64,000 nucleotides of DNA from Candidatus Poribacteria bacterium (GTDB taxonomy: Bacteria > Poribacteria > WGA-4E > WGA-3G), in the NCBI GenBank assembly GCA_026706025.1, contig JAPOZO010000084.1:62001-126000 (forward strand). Direction: 5' to 3'. This document shows, in pieces, positions 35,904 through 44,258 of this stretch. The position numbers were made by a program, and so were the translations under genes. Below the pieces are notes generated by a model, which did no database searches, was not told the DNA's origin, and worked only from the letters and a program-made list of their open reading frames with translations. Every line of letters starts with the position of its first letter. Position 1 is the stretch's first letter.

Positions 35904-37244
35904 TTAATTGGTGCCTGAACGCAGATCGAAGCATACAAGGCGATCTTTGCCACGGATATAGAGATAACCATCTGCCAATACAGGGGCTGCCCAAGCAGGA
36001 TATTTCACTAACTGGCGACCGTTTTTATCTCTCAGTGAGGACACCTGAGAAATTACCTCTAATTTCTCAGGTGTGCATTTAAGGAGCATCAAACGTCCGT
36101 ACTCACCGAGATAAATAAAGTAGTTGTTCACCCAAAGCAGCGAGGCACGTTCATCAACGCGTTGTGACCACCTGACCTTACCCGTTTTGAGTTCCACACA
36201 GCGGAGTTCTGCCCCGTTGGGACGTTGCCCACTACAGGCATAGAGGTAACCCTCATGGTGGATTGCAGTGTTCCAGTGCAACTCCATGGACTTGTTCCTG
36301 CGCGTCGCGCGATCTTTCCAAACGACCTCGTAGCTGCCCGGACGCACCTTGAGTACTGAACTACCAATGCCGTAGGACTCGCTAATAAAGACGAAATCGT
36401 CGGCAATGACCGGACTCGAAGCGTTGACGGATTCAATTTTGGAATGCCGCCACGGATAGTGGAAATCAATTGCGCCTGATGCCGGTTCAAAGCCGACGAG
36501 TCCACCGCGTAGGAAGGCGAACCCCCACCGTCTATCATCAATCGTTGTAAAGATAGGACTCGCGTAACTCGCGAGCTCATCTGCGATTTGGTAGACGACT
36601 TCGCCGGTGTGCTTGTTAAAGGCGACAATACCACTCCCGTTCGGATCGGGGCTGCCGTTCGCGCCCCAAATATCTTTCGGACTGCCCGGTGGCGAACCGC
36701 CAATCTGAACGATGAGCAGCTCACCTTCGACAGCGGGTGCTGAAGCGACACCGAAAAAGTTTTGGACGACGTGAAACTGCGCCATCGTGTCAATTTTCCA
36801 CAAACCTTTACCATCCGAAACGCGAACACAGTGTAGTATCCCGTCTGCCCCAAAAATATAGACACGGTCATCGTCAACAACTGGACAGCACCGGGGTCCG
36901 TTATTGTAGCCGTACATATCCGTATAATCTGTCGGGTATTCAAACCGCCAGCGTTCGTTGCCGGTCATACTATCAAAACAGGTGAGACGCGCCATATCAC
37001 CGTGGCGTGCGAAAATAAACAATTGTCCATTAGCGACGATCGGTGCCCCGTAACTCGTGCCGATCTGCTTATGCCAGACGACCGGTGGTCCCGTTTTTCC
37101 CCACGGTGCGATGTCTATCTTTTCCTGAGACTTGCCGTCCCGTTCTGGTCCGAGGAAGTCGTTCCAGTCGGCAGCAAACGTCGCTACCAACCCTACCCAG
37201 GAGAAAATTAGGGTTAGAAAGACAACGCGCGGGAAATTTCTCAC
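35904..37244 (-). CDS. Secreted PQQ-type propeller protein
   Basis: A GTG start lies in GTGA over the stop of the mannonate dehydratase-like gene, with GAGGAGG seven bases upstream. The signal peptide (FLTLIFSWVGLVATFA) precedes WNDFLGPERDG, a start typical of secreted quinoprotein-like propellers in Planctomycetes-type genomes. Repeats such as CFDSMTGNERW, RVSDGKGLWKI, FNKHTGEVVYQI and ELKTGKVRW mark a PQQ-like beta-propeller. No dehydrogenase residues can be assigned, so it may be a scaffold rather than an enzyme. The 4-base overlap ties it translationally to the upstream gene. Confidence 0.88.
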   Translation of the reverse strand: MRNFPRVVFLTLIFSWVGLVATFAADWNDFLGPERDGKSQEKIDIAPWGKTGPPVVWHKQIGTSYGAPIVANGQLFIFARHGDMARLTCFDSMTGNERWRFEYPTDYTDMYGYNNGPRCCPVVDDDRVYIFGADGILHCVRVSDGKGLWKIDTMAQFHVVQNFFGVASAPAVEGELLIVQIGGSPPGSPKDIWGANGSPDPNGSGIVAFNKHTGEVVYQIADELASYASPIFTTIDDRRWGFAFLRGGLVGFEPASGAIDFHYPWRHSKIESVNASSPVIADDFVFISESYGIGSSVLKVRPGSYEVVWKDRATRRNKSMELHWNTAIHHEGYLYACSGQRPNGAELRCVELKTGKVRWSQRVDERASLLWVNNYFIYLGEYGRLMLLKCTPEKLEVISQVSSLRDKNGRQLVKYPAWAAPVLADGYLYIRGKDRLVCFDLRSGTN

Positions 37245-38260
37245 GCAGCGACCTCCTCATTGGCGCGCTTCACAAGGGCGTTCATATAGGCGATCGTGTA
37301 TGCTGTGCCGACGCGGTGATCGCCCGCCATGCTCGGAATATGATCCGGGATCAACACACCGTTGAAATCTACTTCACGGAGGGCTTTAGCGACGTGGTAC
37401 ATATCCTGATAGCCGTTGTCAACGAAGGTCTCAACGAAATGCGGGAGCGGTTGATCGACGTTGCGGAAGTGGACTTTGAAAATCTTGTCCCGTTCGCCGA
37501 AATAGCGGATCGACTCAATCACATCTCTGCCCATGAGTTCGCCGCCTTCTAACCAACAACCGACGCAGAAACACATCCCGACATTCGGGCTATCGGCGAT
37601 TTCGAGGGCGCGTTTGTAGCCTTCAAAACTGCTGAAGATACATCTCGGAATTCCTGCGAGATGCAGTGCGGGTGGGTCGTCGGGGTGGATACCGATCATC
37701 ACACCGGCTTCCTCAGCGACAGGTGCCGCCTGCTTGATGAAATACGTGTAGTTATCCCAGAGTTCCTCTTCGCTGTATTCGCGTCCGTGTGAGAGCGGCA
37801 TTTTATATAGATTGCCACCCCAATGTCCCTCTTGCGCAGTCTCAAGGTTGAATCCCCTTGCACTGGCACCGCCACGGGTCGTTTCGCGCTCAGTGCTCCA
37901 AATACCGTTCCCCATGTGCGCGTATGTGGTATATGGGATTCCGGCTCTACCGAGATCACGGATGTACCGCTTGTACTGTTCGACTTTCGCGTCGCGGTTC
38001 TCCAAGTTAAGCACAATCCCGTCTTGATTGTGGACATCACTGTTGCCGAACCCGTAAATCTTGAGCCCTGCGTTCTCGAAAATCTCGCGGCGGCTCATGA
38101 AATAATCGTAATTTGCATTTTCGCCGTTCGTCCAGAGGACGACATATTCAACATCCATCTGCTTGGCAAACTGCAAGTCTGCCTCACTCGGTTCCGGCGA
38201 CATCTGTGCCGTAACTTTCATTCCAGGTTCAATATTTTTTAATGGACTGTGATTTGCCAT
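37241..38260 (-). CDS. Mannonate dehydratase family protein (UxuA-like)
   Basis: UxuA dehydrates D-mannonate to 2-keto-3-deoxygluconate in glucuronate breakdown. The barrel shows family sequence: MIGIHPDDPP, RCIFSSFEGYKRALEIA, VGMCFCVGCWLEGG (metal-site region), KVHFRNV and VLIPDHIPS. ATG at 38260 is preceded by GGAGG and is preferred to a start 13 codons earlier. The substrate may be another sugar acid, since the family is broad. The sulfatase, Gfo/Idh and PQQ genes around it fit uronate scavenging (inference). Confidence 0.85.
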   Translation of the reverse strand: MANHSPLKNIEPGMKVTAQMSPEPSEADLQFAKQMDVEYVVLWTNGENANYDYFMSRREIFENAGLKIYGFGNSDVHNQDGIVLNLENRDAKVEQYKRYIRDLGRAGIPYTTYAHMGNGIWSTERETTRGGASARGFNLETAQEGHWGGNLYKMPLSHGREYSEEELWDNYTYFIKQAAPVAEEAGVMIGIHPDDPPALHLAGIPRCIFSSFEGYKRALEIADSPNVGMCFCVGCWLEGGELMGRDVIESIRYFGERDKIFKVHFRNVDQPLPHFVETFVDNGYQDMYHVAKALREVDFNGVLIPDHIPSMAGDHRVGTAYTIAYMNALVKRANEEVAA

Positions 38261-38277
38261 TTCGTGCCTCCATTTTC

Positions 38278-38393
38278 TGTAGCCATCAGCAGTCAGCAAT
38301 CAGTTAAGATTTCTTTGTAGCAGGTAGAATGTTCACAGCCTCCAGAACAAATAACCGACAACTCTCACTGCGAGGCAAACTGATAACCGGCAA
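38278..38393. repeat. Dispersed repeat family R1, copy E
   Basis: GCCATCAGCAGTCAGCAATC and CAACTCTCACTGCGAGGC carry the R1 units and its core in inverted orientation. It separates the sulfatase and UxuA-like genes. Confidence 0.75.
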
Positions 38394-39827
38394 CTACTCT
38401 TCGTCTCCTGCTTCTGTTTTGAGTCGATATAACTCTTGCGTTAATTCAGTGACAATATCTGCGTACGCTGGGTCGTCGTAGACACTACACATCTCATTCG
38501 GATCTTTCTCCAGGTCGAAAAGTTCCCATTCCGGTGCTTTCGATTCATCGAGGGATCCAGTTGTGCCAAGTGCCTCGCCGTAGTAATAGATGAGTTTATA
38601 GCGATCCGTCCGTATCCCGTAGTGCGCGGGTACATAGTGGTGCGCGAGGTGCATCCAGTAACGGTAATACATGGACGTTCGCCAATCGTCAGGTGTCTCA
38701 CCATTGAGGATTGGCCGTAGACTCGTGCCCTGCATGTCATCAGGAATTGATACGCCTGCGTAGTCGAGCCAAGTCTCTGCGAAATCTATGTTTAAGGACA
38801 TGGCATCGGACGCGCTGCCGGGTTGAATCTCGCGCGGATAGCGGACGAGGAACGGCATTCGTAATGATTCCTCATACATAAACCGCTTGTCATACCAACC
38901 GTGGTCGCCTAAGAAGAATCCTTGGTCAGAGGTATAAATCACGAGCGTGTCGTCTGCGATACCGTCTTCATCAAGGTAGTCGAGCATCCGACCTACATTG
39001 TCATCAATTGAGGCAACACAGCGGAGATATTCTTTGATATATCGTTGATAATTCCAATTTGCCATCTCTTCCTCTGACAACCCTTCAGGTGGTGGACCGA
39101 GTTTATCAATCTTGAGGTCCCTTTCGGTCATGTGCCCGAAGACGCGCATCTTCGCTTCCTTTGCGGCGTTTGAACGGTTGGCGTAATCGTCGAAAAAGTT
39201 GTCCGGCATCGGAACATCGCCGTCCTCGAACATGTCGGCGTGTTTCTCATCGGAGTCCCATGGACGGTGCGGTGCCTTGTGGTGACACATCATGAAGAAA
39301 GGTCTATCCTTGTCACGATTCTGGAGCCACTCCAATGAGAAGTCGGTAATGATGTCGGTAGTATAACCTTTGTGGGTTTTCCGACCGTCAGGTTCAATCA
39401 TGACTGGATCGTGATAGAGGCCTTGCCCGGGCAGCACGTTCCAATAGTCAAACCCTGTTGGGTCGGCATCACCGCCGTGTCCGAGGTGCCATTTACCGAC
39501 CATCGCGGTTTGGTAGCCGTCCGCCTGTAGCATCTTGGCAACATTCGGTATTCTGCCATCAAAATGATCCCCTATGGTCTTCACTCCGTTAAGGTGGCTG
39601 TGTTTGCCGGTCAAAATATTCGCACGGCTCGGTGTACAGATGGAGTTAACACAGAAACAGTTATGGAGAATCATACCGCCGTCTGCGATACGATCAAGGT
39701 GGGGTGTTTGATTAATTCGACTCCCGTAGCTGCTAATCGCGTGTGATGCGTGGTCGTCGGACATGATGAATAGGATATTAGGTCTGCTCAATTGTGGCTC
39801 CTTTAAATTTATGATTTCCCTTATCAT
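38394..39827 (-). CDS. Type I sulfatase
   Basis: The sulfatase core is clear. PNILFIMSDDHASHA carries the metal-binding Asp pair (24-25). CTPSRANILTGKH carries the Cys64 that must be converted to formylglycine. Then come GKWHLGHGG, PHRPWDSD and YTSDQGFFLGDHGWYDK, and the C-terminal ELFDLEKDPNEM region. At 477 residues it is a normal arylsulfatase. No signal peptide is visible, so it would be cytosolic unless exported atypically. It cleaves sulfate esters, likely from sulfated glycans. The SUMF1 protein 5 kb away looks incompetent, so activation depends on an enzyme outside the window. Confidence 0.93.
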   Translation of the reverse strand: MIREIINLKEPQLSRPNILFIMSDDHASHAISSYGSRINQTPHLDRIADGGMILHNCFCVNSICTPSRANILTGKHSHLNGVKTIGDHFDGRIPNVAKMLQADGYQTAMVGKWHLGHGGDADPTGFDYWNVLPGQGLYHDPVMIEPDGRKTHKGYTTDIITDFSLEWLQNRDKDRPFFMMCHHKAPHRPWDSDEKHADMFEDGDVPMPDNFFDDYANRSNAAKEAKMRVFGHMTERDLKIDKLGPPPEGLSEEEMANWNYQRYIKEYLRCVASIDDNVGRMLDYLDEDGIADDTLVIYTSDQGFFLGDHGWYDKRFMYEESLRMPFLVRYPREIQPGSASDAMSLNIDFAETWLDYAGVSIPDDMQGTSLRPILNGETPDDWRTSMYYRYWMHLAHHYVPAHYGIRTDRYKLIYYYGEALGTTGSLDESKAPEWELFDLEKDPNEMCSVYDDPAYADIVTELTQELYRLKTEAGDEE

Positions 39828-40229: not shown

Positions 40230-41651
40230 TCAACCAGCGTTTAGCGATGGTGGCAGCTCGGCGAGCGTGTAACCTTGTGCTTTCGCTTCAGTTTGCCGTT
40301 GATACCACTTTGTCCAGATTTCTCCTTCTTTAGCAGTGCCTTTTACAGTGCCTCTCGCCTCTTGGTAACTGGAGATCAGGATGGGTATGAACACCAAAAG
40401 GATTGGCATAGAACTCCCTATTTCACCGAAGAAAAAAATAACAATAAGAACCCAAAAGATAAAATGAATCATAAGGCGCGTCGGATTAAGTAGCATCAAT
40501 AATATTGCCTTTTGTGCTATCCTGAAATAAGAATTCGCTTGCGTATTTTCCAATGGTGGCGGTTCCTCAAAAATCTCTCCGCGGTTTACGGTTTCTTGTT
40601 GCCCTTGGTACCACTGCATCCATACTTGTTGCGCATTGGTAACACCTCTTAGGTTGCCTCTTGCCTCCCGGTAACTGATGACGAAAACGATTAGAAAAAT
40701 CCAAAGAAGCAATTGTCCAAAGAATCCTATTATCTCAAATATTTCAAAAATATCTTCAGGCGTTTCTGAGGGTGGAAGTGTCGTGAAGAATAAAAGCGCG
40801 CATGTGAAAATCCAACATGTAAGATGAATGATAAATGGCTTCAGGTTACGCACCATGAAAAACAGCGTTTCTGGAATTTCTCCGATATAGGAATAGTCTC
40901 GCACGTTTTCCGATGCTGGCGGCTCTTCAAAGGAACTTTCCTGCACAATCGCTTTGATTTGTCGGTAGTACCACTTCGTCCAGATGTCTCTCTCTATCGC
41001 CACTCCTTTCAAGTTGCTTCTCGCCTCGCGGTAGCTAAGTATGAGCGTGAATATAACAGTGAGGATAACGATTTCGGGAAGTGATCGCACAAAATCGCTT
41101 GGGTCAAATAGGGTAGGAAGCGCGAACAGTGTAAACCAAAATATGAAATGCCCTGCAGGAAGTACCAGGTGCCGAAACATGAATAGCACCGTTTTGCGTG
41201 CGGATATGAAATAGGAACCGCCCGGTATATGTTCTAATAATGGCGGTGTCTCATAAGTGCCTCGCTGAACCTTTATTAACTCTTGGCGGTCGTACCACTG
41301 CATCCATGTCTGTCGCTCTGTAGTAATACCTTTCCGGCTGCTCCTCGCCTCCCTGTAACTAAATGTGAGTGCGATAGGGATAATAAACAGGCATAACCTA
41401 TAAGAAAAGATGAAATCGCGACTGATTTCTTCAATGATGAAAGAAAAGGCTGTGACTAATTTCCAGAGGGACCCAGGCAAATCCTCAAAAGCACCTTCTG
41501 CTGCCGCAACCACATACGGCCATGTGCCGTATCTGAACGGTTCGTCCCATATAGTGAGTATAGCAGAAAACAGGATCCAACATGCGAGAAAATAGACGAT
41601 AAAAGTTGTCGGGTTCCACAGCATAAATAACAGTGTTTTTCGGGCTTTCAT
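40230..41651 (-). CDS. Membrane protein with four tandem two-helix repeats
   Basis: No known family is recognised. The protein is four copies of a unit of about 110 residues. Each has a first helix near an LxxNPxxxxIHxxxW start, a second helix, the cytoplasmic-looking signature S-Y-[RQ]-E-A-R (residues 98, 206, 326 and 428), an [SG]xxKG pattern, W-x-x-W-Y about 17 residues later, and a Glu/Pro-rich tail ending in SYF/SYI. The final unit reads SSYQEARGTVKG. A paralogue with two units lies 49 bases upstream. Eight membrane helices are predicted, and all signatures would lie on one side of the membrane. Confidence 0.75.
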   Translation of the reverse strand: MKARKTLLFMLWNPTTFIVYFLACWILFSAILTIWDEPFRYGTWPYVVAAAEGAFEDLPGSLWKLVTAFSFIIEEISRDFIFSYRLCLFIIPIALTFSYREARSSRKGITTERQTWMQWYDRQELIKVQRGTYETPPLLEHIPGGSYFISARKTVLFMFRHLVLPAGHFIFWFTLFALPTLFDPSDFVRSLPEIVILTVIFTLILSYREARSNLKGVAIERDIWTKWYYRQIKAIVQESSFEEPPASENVRDYSYIGEIPETLFFMVRNLKPFIIHLTCWIFTCALLFFTTLPPSETPEDIFEIFEIIGFFGQLLLWIFLIVFVISYREARGNLRGVTNAQQVWMQWYQGQQETVNRGEIFEEPPPLENTQANSYFRIAQKAILLMLLNPTRLMIHFIFWVLIVIFFFGEIGSSMPILLVFIPILISSYQEARGTVKGTAKEGEIWTKWYQRQTEAKAQGYTLAELPPSLNAG

Positions 41652-41700
41652 GATATATCCTTATGTGCAAGATTTTCCGTGAAATCGTGTTTCGTATCTG

Positions 41701-42495
41701 TTAATACATGCGGAACAATGGCGGAGACACGTCAAAAGGGACACCTTGTACTTTCGCTTCTTGCTGTTGGCAATACCACTCCGTCCACGTCTGTTGTACT
41801 TTGGCGACTCCTTTCACAGTCCCTCTTGTTTCTTGGTAACTGGAAATGAGACCGAATATAGCAGCGACTATCGCGAGAAAAGATACAGCCGACAAAAAAT
41901 CGCGAGCGAAGTTCTCGGTTGTCCGAACCACATCAGCAAAATCTGGAAATACTGTTATGAGGATTAGTAAGAGGATTAGTAAAAAGCAAGTCAGAAACCA
42001 GTATAGAAAATGAATGATCGGTAGTTTTGGGTTACGAATCATGAATGACAACGTTTTTTGTGCTTTCCTGAAATAGGAGTTGACTCGCATGTTTTTCAAT
42101 GGCGGTGCGGGTTCCACGAAATTGTCGCCTTCTGCTGTCGTTTCCTGTTGTCGGTGATACCATTTCATCCATATCCGATGCTCATCGCTAATGCCTTTTA
42201 GGTTGCCGACTGCTTCGCGGTAAGATATAAGGAAAGGTGGCATAACGACAAGCACCCAAGATCCAGTTCTCGTTAAATCTTCTATGATTTCATCCCAAAT
42301 AATTGAGGCAGCTTTTAGAAAATCTCCGATAGACGCAGGAGATTCCACAATAACTTTAATATAGGGCAACGTCCCTTCTATGAATGGATCGTCCGACACG
42401 ATTCCCCAAGCAGCAAGCAAAAACCAGCACGTTAAATGAACGATGAGAGGTATGGGGTTGCGAAGCATGAATAACAGCACTTCTAAGACCTTCAT
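41701..42495 (-). CDS. Membrane protein with two tandem two-helix repeats (paralogue)
   Basis: This 264-residue protein has two units of the same family. The first (SYREAVGNLKG, residue 91) shares DDPFxxGTxPY with the first unit of the neighbour, which reads DEPFRYGTWPY. The last (SSYQETRGTVKG, residue 218) shares SSYQExRGTVKG with the neighbour's last unit. So the two proteins match in their end units, and the middle units were gained or lost. W-x-x-W-Y appears at 109-113 and 237-241. It is transcribed ahead of the four-unit gene. Function unknown; the neighbours (sulfatase, PotD) do not help. Confidence 0.75.
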   Translation of the reverse strand: MKVLEVLLFMLRNPIPLIVHLTCWFLLAAWGIVSDDPFIEGTLPYIKVIVESPASIGDFLKAASIIWDEIIEDLTRTGSWVLVVMPPFLISYREAVGNLKGISDEHRIWMKWYHRQQETTAEGDNFVEPAPPLKNMRVNSYFRKAQKTLSFMIRNPKLPIIHFLYWFLTCFLLILLLILITVFPDFADVVRTTENFARDFLSAVSFLAIVAAIFGLISSYQETRGTVKGVAKVQQTWTEWYCQQQEAKVQGVPFDVSPPLFRMY

Positions 42496-42732: not shown

Positions 42733-43761
42733 TTATTTCGCTTTGACTTCTTCCCACGCGCGGTCGTAGTGCCTTGTAAAATCGCCGGGATCTCGCAACC
42801 ATTCAAGGGATTCCAGGACCTCTTTTGGTGGATAGATAAACTTGTGTTCCCGTAGATTTTCGGGTAAGAATTCTTTCGCTGTCGGGACGCAGGTACCGTA
42901 TTTCGTGAAAGCGGTGATCTTGGCGTTGACTTCGGGACGGAGAAGGTAGTTGATAAACTGTTCTGCAAGTGCCTTATGCGGTGCGGATTTCGGGATGCAG
43001 ACAGCATCAATAAACTGGCTCGATCCTTCTTTCGGGATGACGTACCGGATCGTCGGACGCGTCTCAGTCGCGCGGAAAGCATCACCACTCCAGCAGTGCG
43101 CCATAACGACATCCCCGGCGATAAGGAGCTCTTCCGCCTCGCTTTTATACTGTTTCACAAGCGGTTTCTGCGCGATGAGTTTCTCTTTCGCCGCTTTGAT
43201 TTCATCCGGATCGGTCGTGTTGAGACTGTATCCGAGGAATTTTAGTGCGGCACCGATGGTTTCACGTTGGTCGTCTAACATGCTGAACTGGTTTTTATAT
43301 TCTGCATCCCAGAGCACTGCCCAACTATCCGGTGCTGGTGAAACAACAGCCGAATCGTAGGCGATCCCTGCCGTGCCGAATGTATAAGGAATAGAATATT
43401 GGTTTTCAGGGTCGAAGTATTTACCGAGAAACAACGGACTAATGTTCTGGAAGTTGGGAATATTGTCGCGGTTGAGTTCTGCTAACAGGTTTTGCTTAAT
43501 TAGGATGGATACCATATAGTCGGATGGCATAATGATGTCGTATCCTGTCGCACCCGCTAATAGTTTCGTGAGCAGATCTTCGTTACTGGCATAGGTATCA
43601 ACGAGAACGGTAACCCCAAACGCCTTTTCAAAGCCTTCACGGATGTCATCACTGACGTACCCTGCCCATGTAAAGACGTTGAGTTGTTTCTTCTGCCCAA
43701 TACCATCGCCGATGAAAAGTGTGAGGAGTATAAGTACTAAGAGGATGTATCTGTTGCGCAT
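42733..43761 (-). CDS. Spermidine/putrescine-binding periplasmic protein (PotD-like)
   Basis: Substrate-binding lipoprotein-like protein of polyamine ABC transporters. After a signal peptide (YILLVLILLTLFIGDGIG) comes LNVFTWAGYVSDDIREGFEK, then YDIIMPSDYMVS, IPYTFGTAGIAYDS and a closing YDRAWEEVKA. These are all hallmark PotD/PotF stretches. The length (342) is right. The ABC membrane and ATPase genes are absent from the window, so it is solitary or its partners lie elsewhere. It ends at a strong terminator. Confidence 0.9.
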   Translation of the reverse strand: MRNRYILLVLILLTLFIGDGIGQKKQLNVFTWAGYVSDDIREGFEKAFGVTVLVDTYASNEDLLTKLLAGATGYDIIMPSDYMVSILIKQNLLAELNRDNIPNFQNISPLFLGKYFDPENQYSIPYTFGTAGIAYDSAVVSPAPDSWAVLWDAEYKNQFSMLDDQRETIGAALKFLGYSLNTTDPDEIKAAKEKLIAQKPLVKQYKSEAEELLIAGDVVMAHCWSGDAFRATETRPTIRYVIPKEGSSQFIDAVCIPKSAPHKALAEQFINYLLRPEVNAKITAFTKYGTCVPTAKEFLPENLREHKFIYPPKEVLESLEWLRDPGDFTRHYDRAWEEVKAK

Positions 43762-43892: not shown

Positions 43893-44258
43893 TTATTCAT
43901 CAGACTTTTCGGTGGGGAGTCCCTCAGCTTTCCAGCCCCGGAAACCGCCAGTGAGAACTGAGACGTTTTCATAACCCATGTTTTTTAACGTGTGTGCGGA
44001 GAGTGTCGCACGGGTACCACCACCGCAATAGGTAACGATGTGTGTGTCTGCGTCAGAGGCGATCTCATCAATATCAAGTTCGAGATAGCCGCGTGGCAGT
44101 GAAACGGCATTCGGTAGATGTTCCTCGTCGTAGTCGGGCTCGTCCCGAACATCTAAGAGGATGATTGTGTCTGTAACCTCTGTGAGTTCGTCGGGCGATA
44201 TGTGTCCAACGTTTGCTTTCGCTTCGGTAACTAATTGTTCAAGGGTTTTCAGTGGCAT
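43893..44258 (-). CDS. Rhodanese-like domain protein
   Basis: A single rhodanese domain that could carry sulfur on the cysteine in IVTYCGGGTRATLSA. LLDVRDEPDYDEEHLPNA and a closing GGFRGWKAEGLPTE complete the family pattern. At 121 residues it is a stand-alone domain and is cytosolic. It is monocistronic with a near-consensus promoter. Sulfur transfer or a signalling role cannot be told apart. Confidence 0.9.
   Translation of the reverse strand: MPLKTLEQLVTEAKANVGHISPDELTEVTDTIILLDVRDEPDYDEEHLPNAVSLPRGYLELDIDEIASDADTHIVTYCGGGTRATLSAHTLKNMGYENVSVLTGGFRGWKAEGLPTEKSDE

Follow-up and report, generated by a model that had tools for sequence, protein, structure and literature searches.

In FliH/YscL a segment of the form AxxxG(xxxG)mxxxA has been discussed as a helix-helix dimerisation element (PMC2674601), and glycine also recurs at every fourth residue in the deca-GX3 proteins Yae1 and Lto1 (Yae1_N, PF09811; PMC4523923). 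Here we set beside these systems a pair of adjacent genes, A and B, found in a 64,000-nucleotide window (the whole stretch of DNA analysed) from a sponge-associated member of Candidatus Poribacteria. In uncultured phyla, membrane families that are undescribed and specific to one lineage are met with frequently. The initial annotation of the window had proposed that these genes hold six copies of one two-helix membrane unit, four in A and two in B, and both open reading frames were recovered exactly where it had placed them (Table 1), on the minus strand and separated by 49 bp.

Table 1. Positions in the window of genes A and B, their units and the genes on either side
Feature	Coordinates	Strand	Description
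Rhodanese-domain protein	43893..44258	-	Upstream syntenic neighbour
PotD-like extracellular solute-binding protein (SBP_bac_8)	42733..43761	-	Upstream syntenic neighbour
Gene B	41701..42495	-	264 aa, two tandem units
Unit B1	42079..42495	-	Residues 1-139; with DDPFIEGTLPY
Unit B2	41701..42078	-	Residues 140-264 and stop; with SSYQETRGTVKG
Gene A	40230..41651	-	473 aa, four tandem two-helix units
Unit A1	41217..41651	-	Residues 1-145; loop with DEPFRYGTWPY; clusters with B1 and almost every other first unit
Unit A2	40893..41216	-	Residues 146-253; clusters with second units of other four-unit genes
Unit A3	40533..40892	-	Residues 254-373; clusters with third units from two genera
Unit A4	40230..40532	-	Residues 374-473 and stop; with SSYQEARGTVKG; clusters with last units
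Sulfatase (PF00884 and SGSH_C)	38394..39827	-	Downstream syntenic neighbour
UxuA-like TIM-barrel protein	37241..38299	-	Downstream syntenic neighbour

The six units are homologous, all 15 unit pairs aligning with scores of 110-216, where shuffled sequences averaged 26-30 (z 17-38 from 300 shuffles per pair). Their alignment gave a common order of interfacial segment, helix 1, loop, helix 2, signature, WxxWY and Pro-rich end, the signature reading S-Y-[RQ]-E-[AT]-x-G-x-x-K-G. The motifs proposed earlier stood up well: S-Y-[RQ]-E-[AT] is present at residues 98, 206, 326 and 428 of A and at 91 and 219 of B, and W-x-x-W-Y at 116, 224, 344 and 446 of A and at 109 and 237 of B, always 18 residues after the Ser where approximately 17 had been claimed. 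The first units share D-[DE]-P-F-x-x-G-T-x-P-Y, as DEPFRYGTWPY in A1 and DDPFIEGTLPY in B1, and the last units likewise share a motif, SSYQEARGTVKG in A4 and SSYQETRGTVKG in B2. A conserved interfacial segment that had not been recorded before, SYF..AQKTLLFM.RNP....H..CW, opens each unit, and helix 1 carries the conserved His, Cys and Trp of H..CW.

Searches of Pfam, NCBIfam, PHROGs and PADLOC, using curated cut-offs where these exist, gave no convincing score for A or B, PDB or fold searches gave no match explaining either protein, and Foldseek with the moderate B model returned nothing at E ≤ 0.001 in PDB or BFVD. A literature search found no description of poribacterial membrane repeats. 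The view that the family was unrecognised was thus borne out, the SYREAR/WxxWY region having matched no domain described so far. The dN/dS of A and B was 0.25-0.35 (~0.3), approximately 8-fold higher than the 0.03-0.045 of neighbour genes, and, since such values denote purifying selection, genes A and B are real. The A/B family is real and new; its function is inferred.

Two helices per unit had been claimed, and a hydropathy scan detected 7/8 in A and 3/4 in B, whilst an AlphaFold2 model of B of moderate confidence (mean pLDDT 72, pTM 0.54) has both helices in both units and shows helix 2 and the signature as single continuous helices (residues 80-122 and 186-250). The AlphaFold2 model of A, built with three orthologues, was of low confidence (pLDDT 37); the gene A alignment was kept free of B fragments, MAFFT having split units across the gap when the two were mixed. 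Across 102 units the mean net charge per 10 residues was +1.4 before helix 1, -1.0 in the loop and +0.7 in the signature, a pattern which predicts that the signature is cytoplasmic and agrees with the earlier suggestion that it always lies on one side of the membrane.

That the layout is confined to such gene pairs was not supported: the signature is common to many single two-helix proteins of the phylum, where it comes after a long GxxxG run, and SYxEAR..KG...WxxWY forms a tail, not noticed in the initial annotation, that is also found in many single 2-TM paralogues. Gene A alone reached the tail of the single-unit proteins at E 8e-6 to 2e-4, and the six-unit profile reached these proteins at E down to 1e-10, both searches being non-circular. 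The tail profile matched 62 of the phylum's 85 genomes, every one of them in the window's order, with up to 33 matches per genome, which puts a name to an uncatalogued module of uncultured sponge-associated bacteria; there was no match in the listed genomes of the class's other families or of the rest of the phylum. In phage and plasmid records a search for the tail yielded, apart from Rpn-type EG repeats, no significant match, two Rhizobium plasmid matches (E 3 and 5) being set aside as chance.

Many of the matches away from the syntenic site of A and B are single proteins of ~150-180 residues with two helices, E-G-x-A-type repeats, WxxW and EPPP; glycine occupies every fourth residue of their repeats, and the WxxW partner is sometimes changed. 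The G(xxxG)m run has m = 2-10 in the single-unit proteins and m = 1 in the tandem units, and the first Trp comes 8 residues after its last Gly in 95/95 units with GxxxG and in 32/39 single-unit proteins (22/117 scored units have no GxxxG upstream of the Trp pair). Given this near-fixed Gly-Trp register, we read the 'xxKG' pattern, from sequence, as the final step of a glycine ladder cut to one rung. Ala stands four residues before the first Gly in 29 of the 39 single-unit proteins and at +4 in 12 of them, and the tandem units carry Arg/Gln at -4 of the glycine step. A Pro pair or PPP follows ~21 residues after the first Trp in 87/126 WxxW occurrences and, with the spacing of 8 and the Pro-rich end, the tandem units belong by their tail with the poribacterial GxxxG-WxxW proteins. 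That the Pro-rich end serves as a translation pause timed to the emergence of helix 2 is not favoured, the remaining 39/126 WxxW occurrences having no Pro pair; the pair is steady at 21 residues past Trp in tandem units, and in single-unit proteins the helix-to-Pro distance varies with m, which counts against such a pause. No homologous membrane hairpin was detected between tandem and single-unit proteins (hhalign probability 7% for the helices alone), and the tail may therefore have been acquired separately in the two groups and need not serve one function.

Two clusters of at least five near-identical single two-helix genes (L089:2962-5778, L093:2771-6175) differ in their numbers of 4-residue glycine repeats, which suggests recent duplication and repeat slippage. 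A 222-residue frame in the window's genome (L106:2377-3042) has irregular long IEQGI/IAKDIEK repeats, a W...W..PFxxPPP end and at most one N-terminal hydrophobic stretch, and judging from this frame the tail may extend beyond two-helix proteins.

We tentatively favour a reading, put as a whole at somewhat under an even chance, in which A and B are a self-associating inner-membrane scaffold family produced by intragenic unit duplication, the tandem-unit family being on this best reading fast-evolving and dispensable. One unit would have been duplicated within a gene to give the inner-membrane proteins A and B, each unit passing through an interfacial helix, membrane helix 1, an acidic periplasmic loop and membrane helix 2, and the latter would reach into the cytoplasm as part of a single long helix (SYxEARGxxKG...WxxWYxRQ) before a Pro-rich turn. 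The cytoplasmic part would be the minimal, one-GxxxG form of the tail that has 2-10 steps in single two-helix proteins, and the glycine steps and aromatic pairs on a helix that runs from the membrane into the cytoplasm could plausibly provide a surface for packing. If FliH/YscL and their GxxxG helices are taken as a guide, the tails may pack helix to helix, and the unit proteins would self- or hetero-associate as scaffolds with several tails side by side per chain, two or four tails in one chain fixing their number. A single GxxxG is a weak predictor of association, which counts against the scaffold reading, as do its absence upstream of the Trp pair in 22/117 scored units and the low (A) to moderate (B) confidence of the models; membrane topology, oligomerisation and the scaffold role are all features that we infer.

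The way in which the genes have grown and shrunk bears on this reading, whole-unit gain and loss with kept ends suiting a modular structural protein better than a fixed-fold transporter or enzyme. A 118-unit tree, resolved in part as the units are short, needed 9 position-label changes compared with 57 when labels were shuffled, and 0/200 shuffles were as low. First units of two- and four-unit genes cluster together, as do last units, so that the predicted grouping of first and last units across both genes was confirmed. The related proposal, that the ends were kept and the middle expanded or lost, was right as well, with middle units 2 and 3 clustering across genera and several independent shortenings: the third units of the window's genus and of another genus cluster together, and second units fall in the same part of the tree. 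Since this clustering of units 2 and 3 spans two genera, a four-unit gene most likely existed in the common ancestor, predating the split of the two genera, and was later shortened. In genome G011 an internal deletion leaves only the A1 start and the A4 end, in G002 the downstream gene begins with a type-3 unit, and G071 has its four-unit gene divided into two. Six further genomes (G007, G009, G012, G013, G024 and G035) have a second unit whose end resembles that of unit 4, with post-Trp scores of 50-71 versus 8-28 for other positions, its membrane part being in most cases closer to unit 2 or 3 than to 4, and the second units of G007, G013, G024 and G035 have a second KW[YH] after WxxWY; this points to deletion by recombination inside the repeated motif, with parent units that are ambiguous given the close membrane-part scores.

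The gene order rhodanese, PotD-like, units, sulfatase and UxuA-like is kept in three genera, hence the site is orthologous and the unit genes are most simply regarded as vertically inherited. The site holds 1-3 unit genes, with 2 to 8 units in total per genome. The close relatives found on searching genome contigs with gene B were all from Candidatus Poribacteria, and gene A had a match in 25 of 60 related genomes, nearly all of the window's genus. Unit absences need five changes on the sulfatase tree, well-supported branches forcing at least four, and, as other genera also carry units, repeated loss rather than gain is the simpler reading. PotD sits 17-76 bp from the sulfatase without units in five genomes (distances from tblastn matches); genome completeness was 61-98%, and these direct PotD-sulfatase joins are firmer evidence of absence than a missing match in a fragmented genome. 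The locus offers an unusually clear natural series at one syntenic site, running from an empty site through two and four units to more, in which the growth and shrinkage of membrane proteins by whole units can be studied. Taken alone, this account of the anatomy and evolution of A and B is one that we hold with high confidence.

In two genomes the units are replaced by an unrelated gene of ~360 aa between PotD and the sulfatase (L141:1366-2534, L142:1417-2666), called kelch-like by eye from its repeats (IYxIGG), and given its presence there the PotD-sulfatase interval is a possible cargo site. A diverged unit gene (L143:1675-2586) occupies the same site in G082, within a 4-kb PotD-sulfatase gap. 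In another genus the last gene of the cluster encodes a 122-residue single unit ending CPRC (L094:4825-5190, L096:1585-1950, L097:2170-2535), and this end is possibly half of a zinc ribbon.

Since a PotD-like solute-binding gene adjoins the units in all three genera, and since helix 1 has its conserved His, Cys and Trp and the first-unit loop is acidic, A and B might take part in transport or form a channel, their tandem units building a pore of 4 to 12 helices that works with the PotD-like protein or its absent permease. We consider this unlikely: the persistence of PotD without units in five genomes, and with the kelch-type gene instead in two, weakens a transporter role, the number of units differs between genomes (2 to 8), and no transporter-like structure was found for the B model (best E 0.7, probability 0.08). 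Improbable too is a sensor or stress-response function, in which the periplasmic DDPFxxGTxP loop would bind a ligand or cell-wall component and signal through the long helix; the DDPF loop is conserved among first units across genera and the best-predicted stretch of the B model, residues 41-70, lies just behind it (block-mean pLDDT 88-92), but the loop motif is missing from most non-first units and no signalling domain or partner regulator adjoins the genes.

The raised dN/dS relative to the neighbours, the repeated loss of units and the widely varying copy number of single-unit relatives, which reaches 33 matches in one genome, would suit a membrane protein with an effector or defence-type role, for instance in abortive infection or a contact-dependent system, that evolves fast and is maintained under turnover. 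To this we assign a low probability, as neither A nor B had a PADLOC match, no toxin, immunity or nuclease gene adjoins them, the surrounding genes resemble conserved metabolic ones, and the chromosomal site is fixed and vertically inherited. Weak PADLOC 'putative invertase' matches on relatives were rejected as a sign of defence and fall on the EG repeat. Near-neutral lineage-specific repeat proteins, held by drift and freely lost, would account for the repeated loss, shortening and chimaeras but make a poor candidate, dN/dS being well below 1 in every comparison and the reading frame being retained across three genera.

The scaffold reading concerns A and B. An extension to which we attach only a slight probability is that the G(xxxG)m-WxxWY-Pro tail serves many membrane hairpin proteins in each genome, single and tandem alike, as a common docking code, by which they would plug into one cytoplasmic assembly, with the four- and two-unit genes acting as multivalent hubs. 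If true, the phylum would have an undescribed membrane-organising system; should the tail act as a code for docking or oligomerisation, many genes in each genome that now lack annotation would be accounted for together.

Compared with FliH/YscL, the single-unit relatives have a similar Ala-x3-G(x3-G)m run, with m = 2-10 and Glu/Ala-rich spacers, and the NCBIfam FliH model matches one of them below threshold on the repeat only (E 2e-8, best 33.6 bits versus a cut-off of 293), with no full-length match for A or B. The differences are that the rest of FliH is unmatched, there is no flagellar context, the proteins are membrane-anchored, a WxxWY/Pro-rich tail follows and the tandem units have one step; the resemblance is a low-complexity helix likeness and not membership, and such repeats can arise independently. 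Yae1 and Lto1 share the glycine spacing of the single-unit relatives but are soluble eukaryotic adaptors for iron-sulfur insertion; the best Yae1_N score on these relatives was 22.6 bits, below the Pfam gathering value of 27.5, and Yae1_N had no match in A or B. A and B resemble internally duplicated multi-unit membrane proteins in general in the intragenic duplication of a helical hairpin, and differ from the described ones in having no sequence or fold match to any. With the poribacterial single-unit proteins (L033, L039, L101, L105) they share two helices, G(xxxG)m, 7 residues, WxxW, Gly, Phe and a Pro-rich end, whereas those proteins have one unit with a long glycine run, lie at scattered loci or in tandem gene clusters, and have membrane helices that are either non-homologous to those of the tandem units or diverged past recognition.
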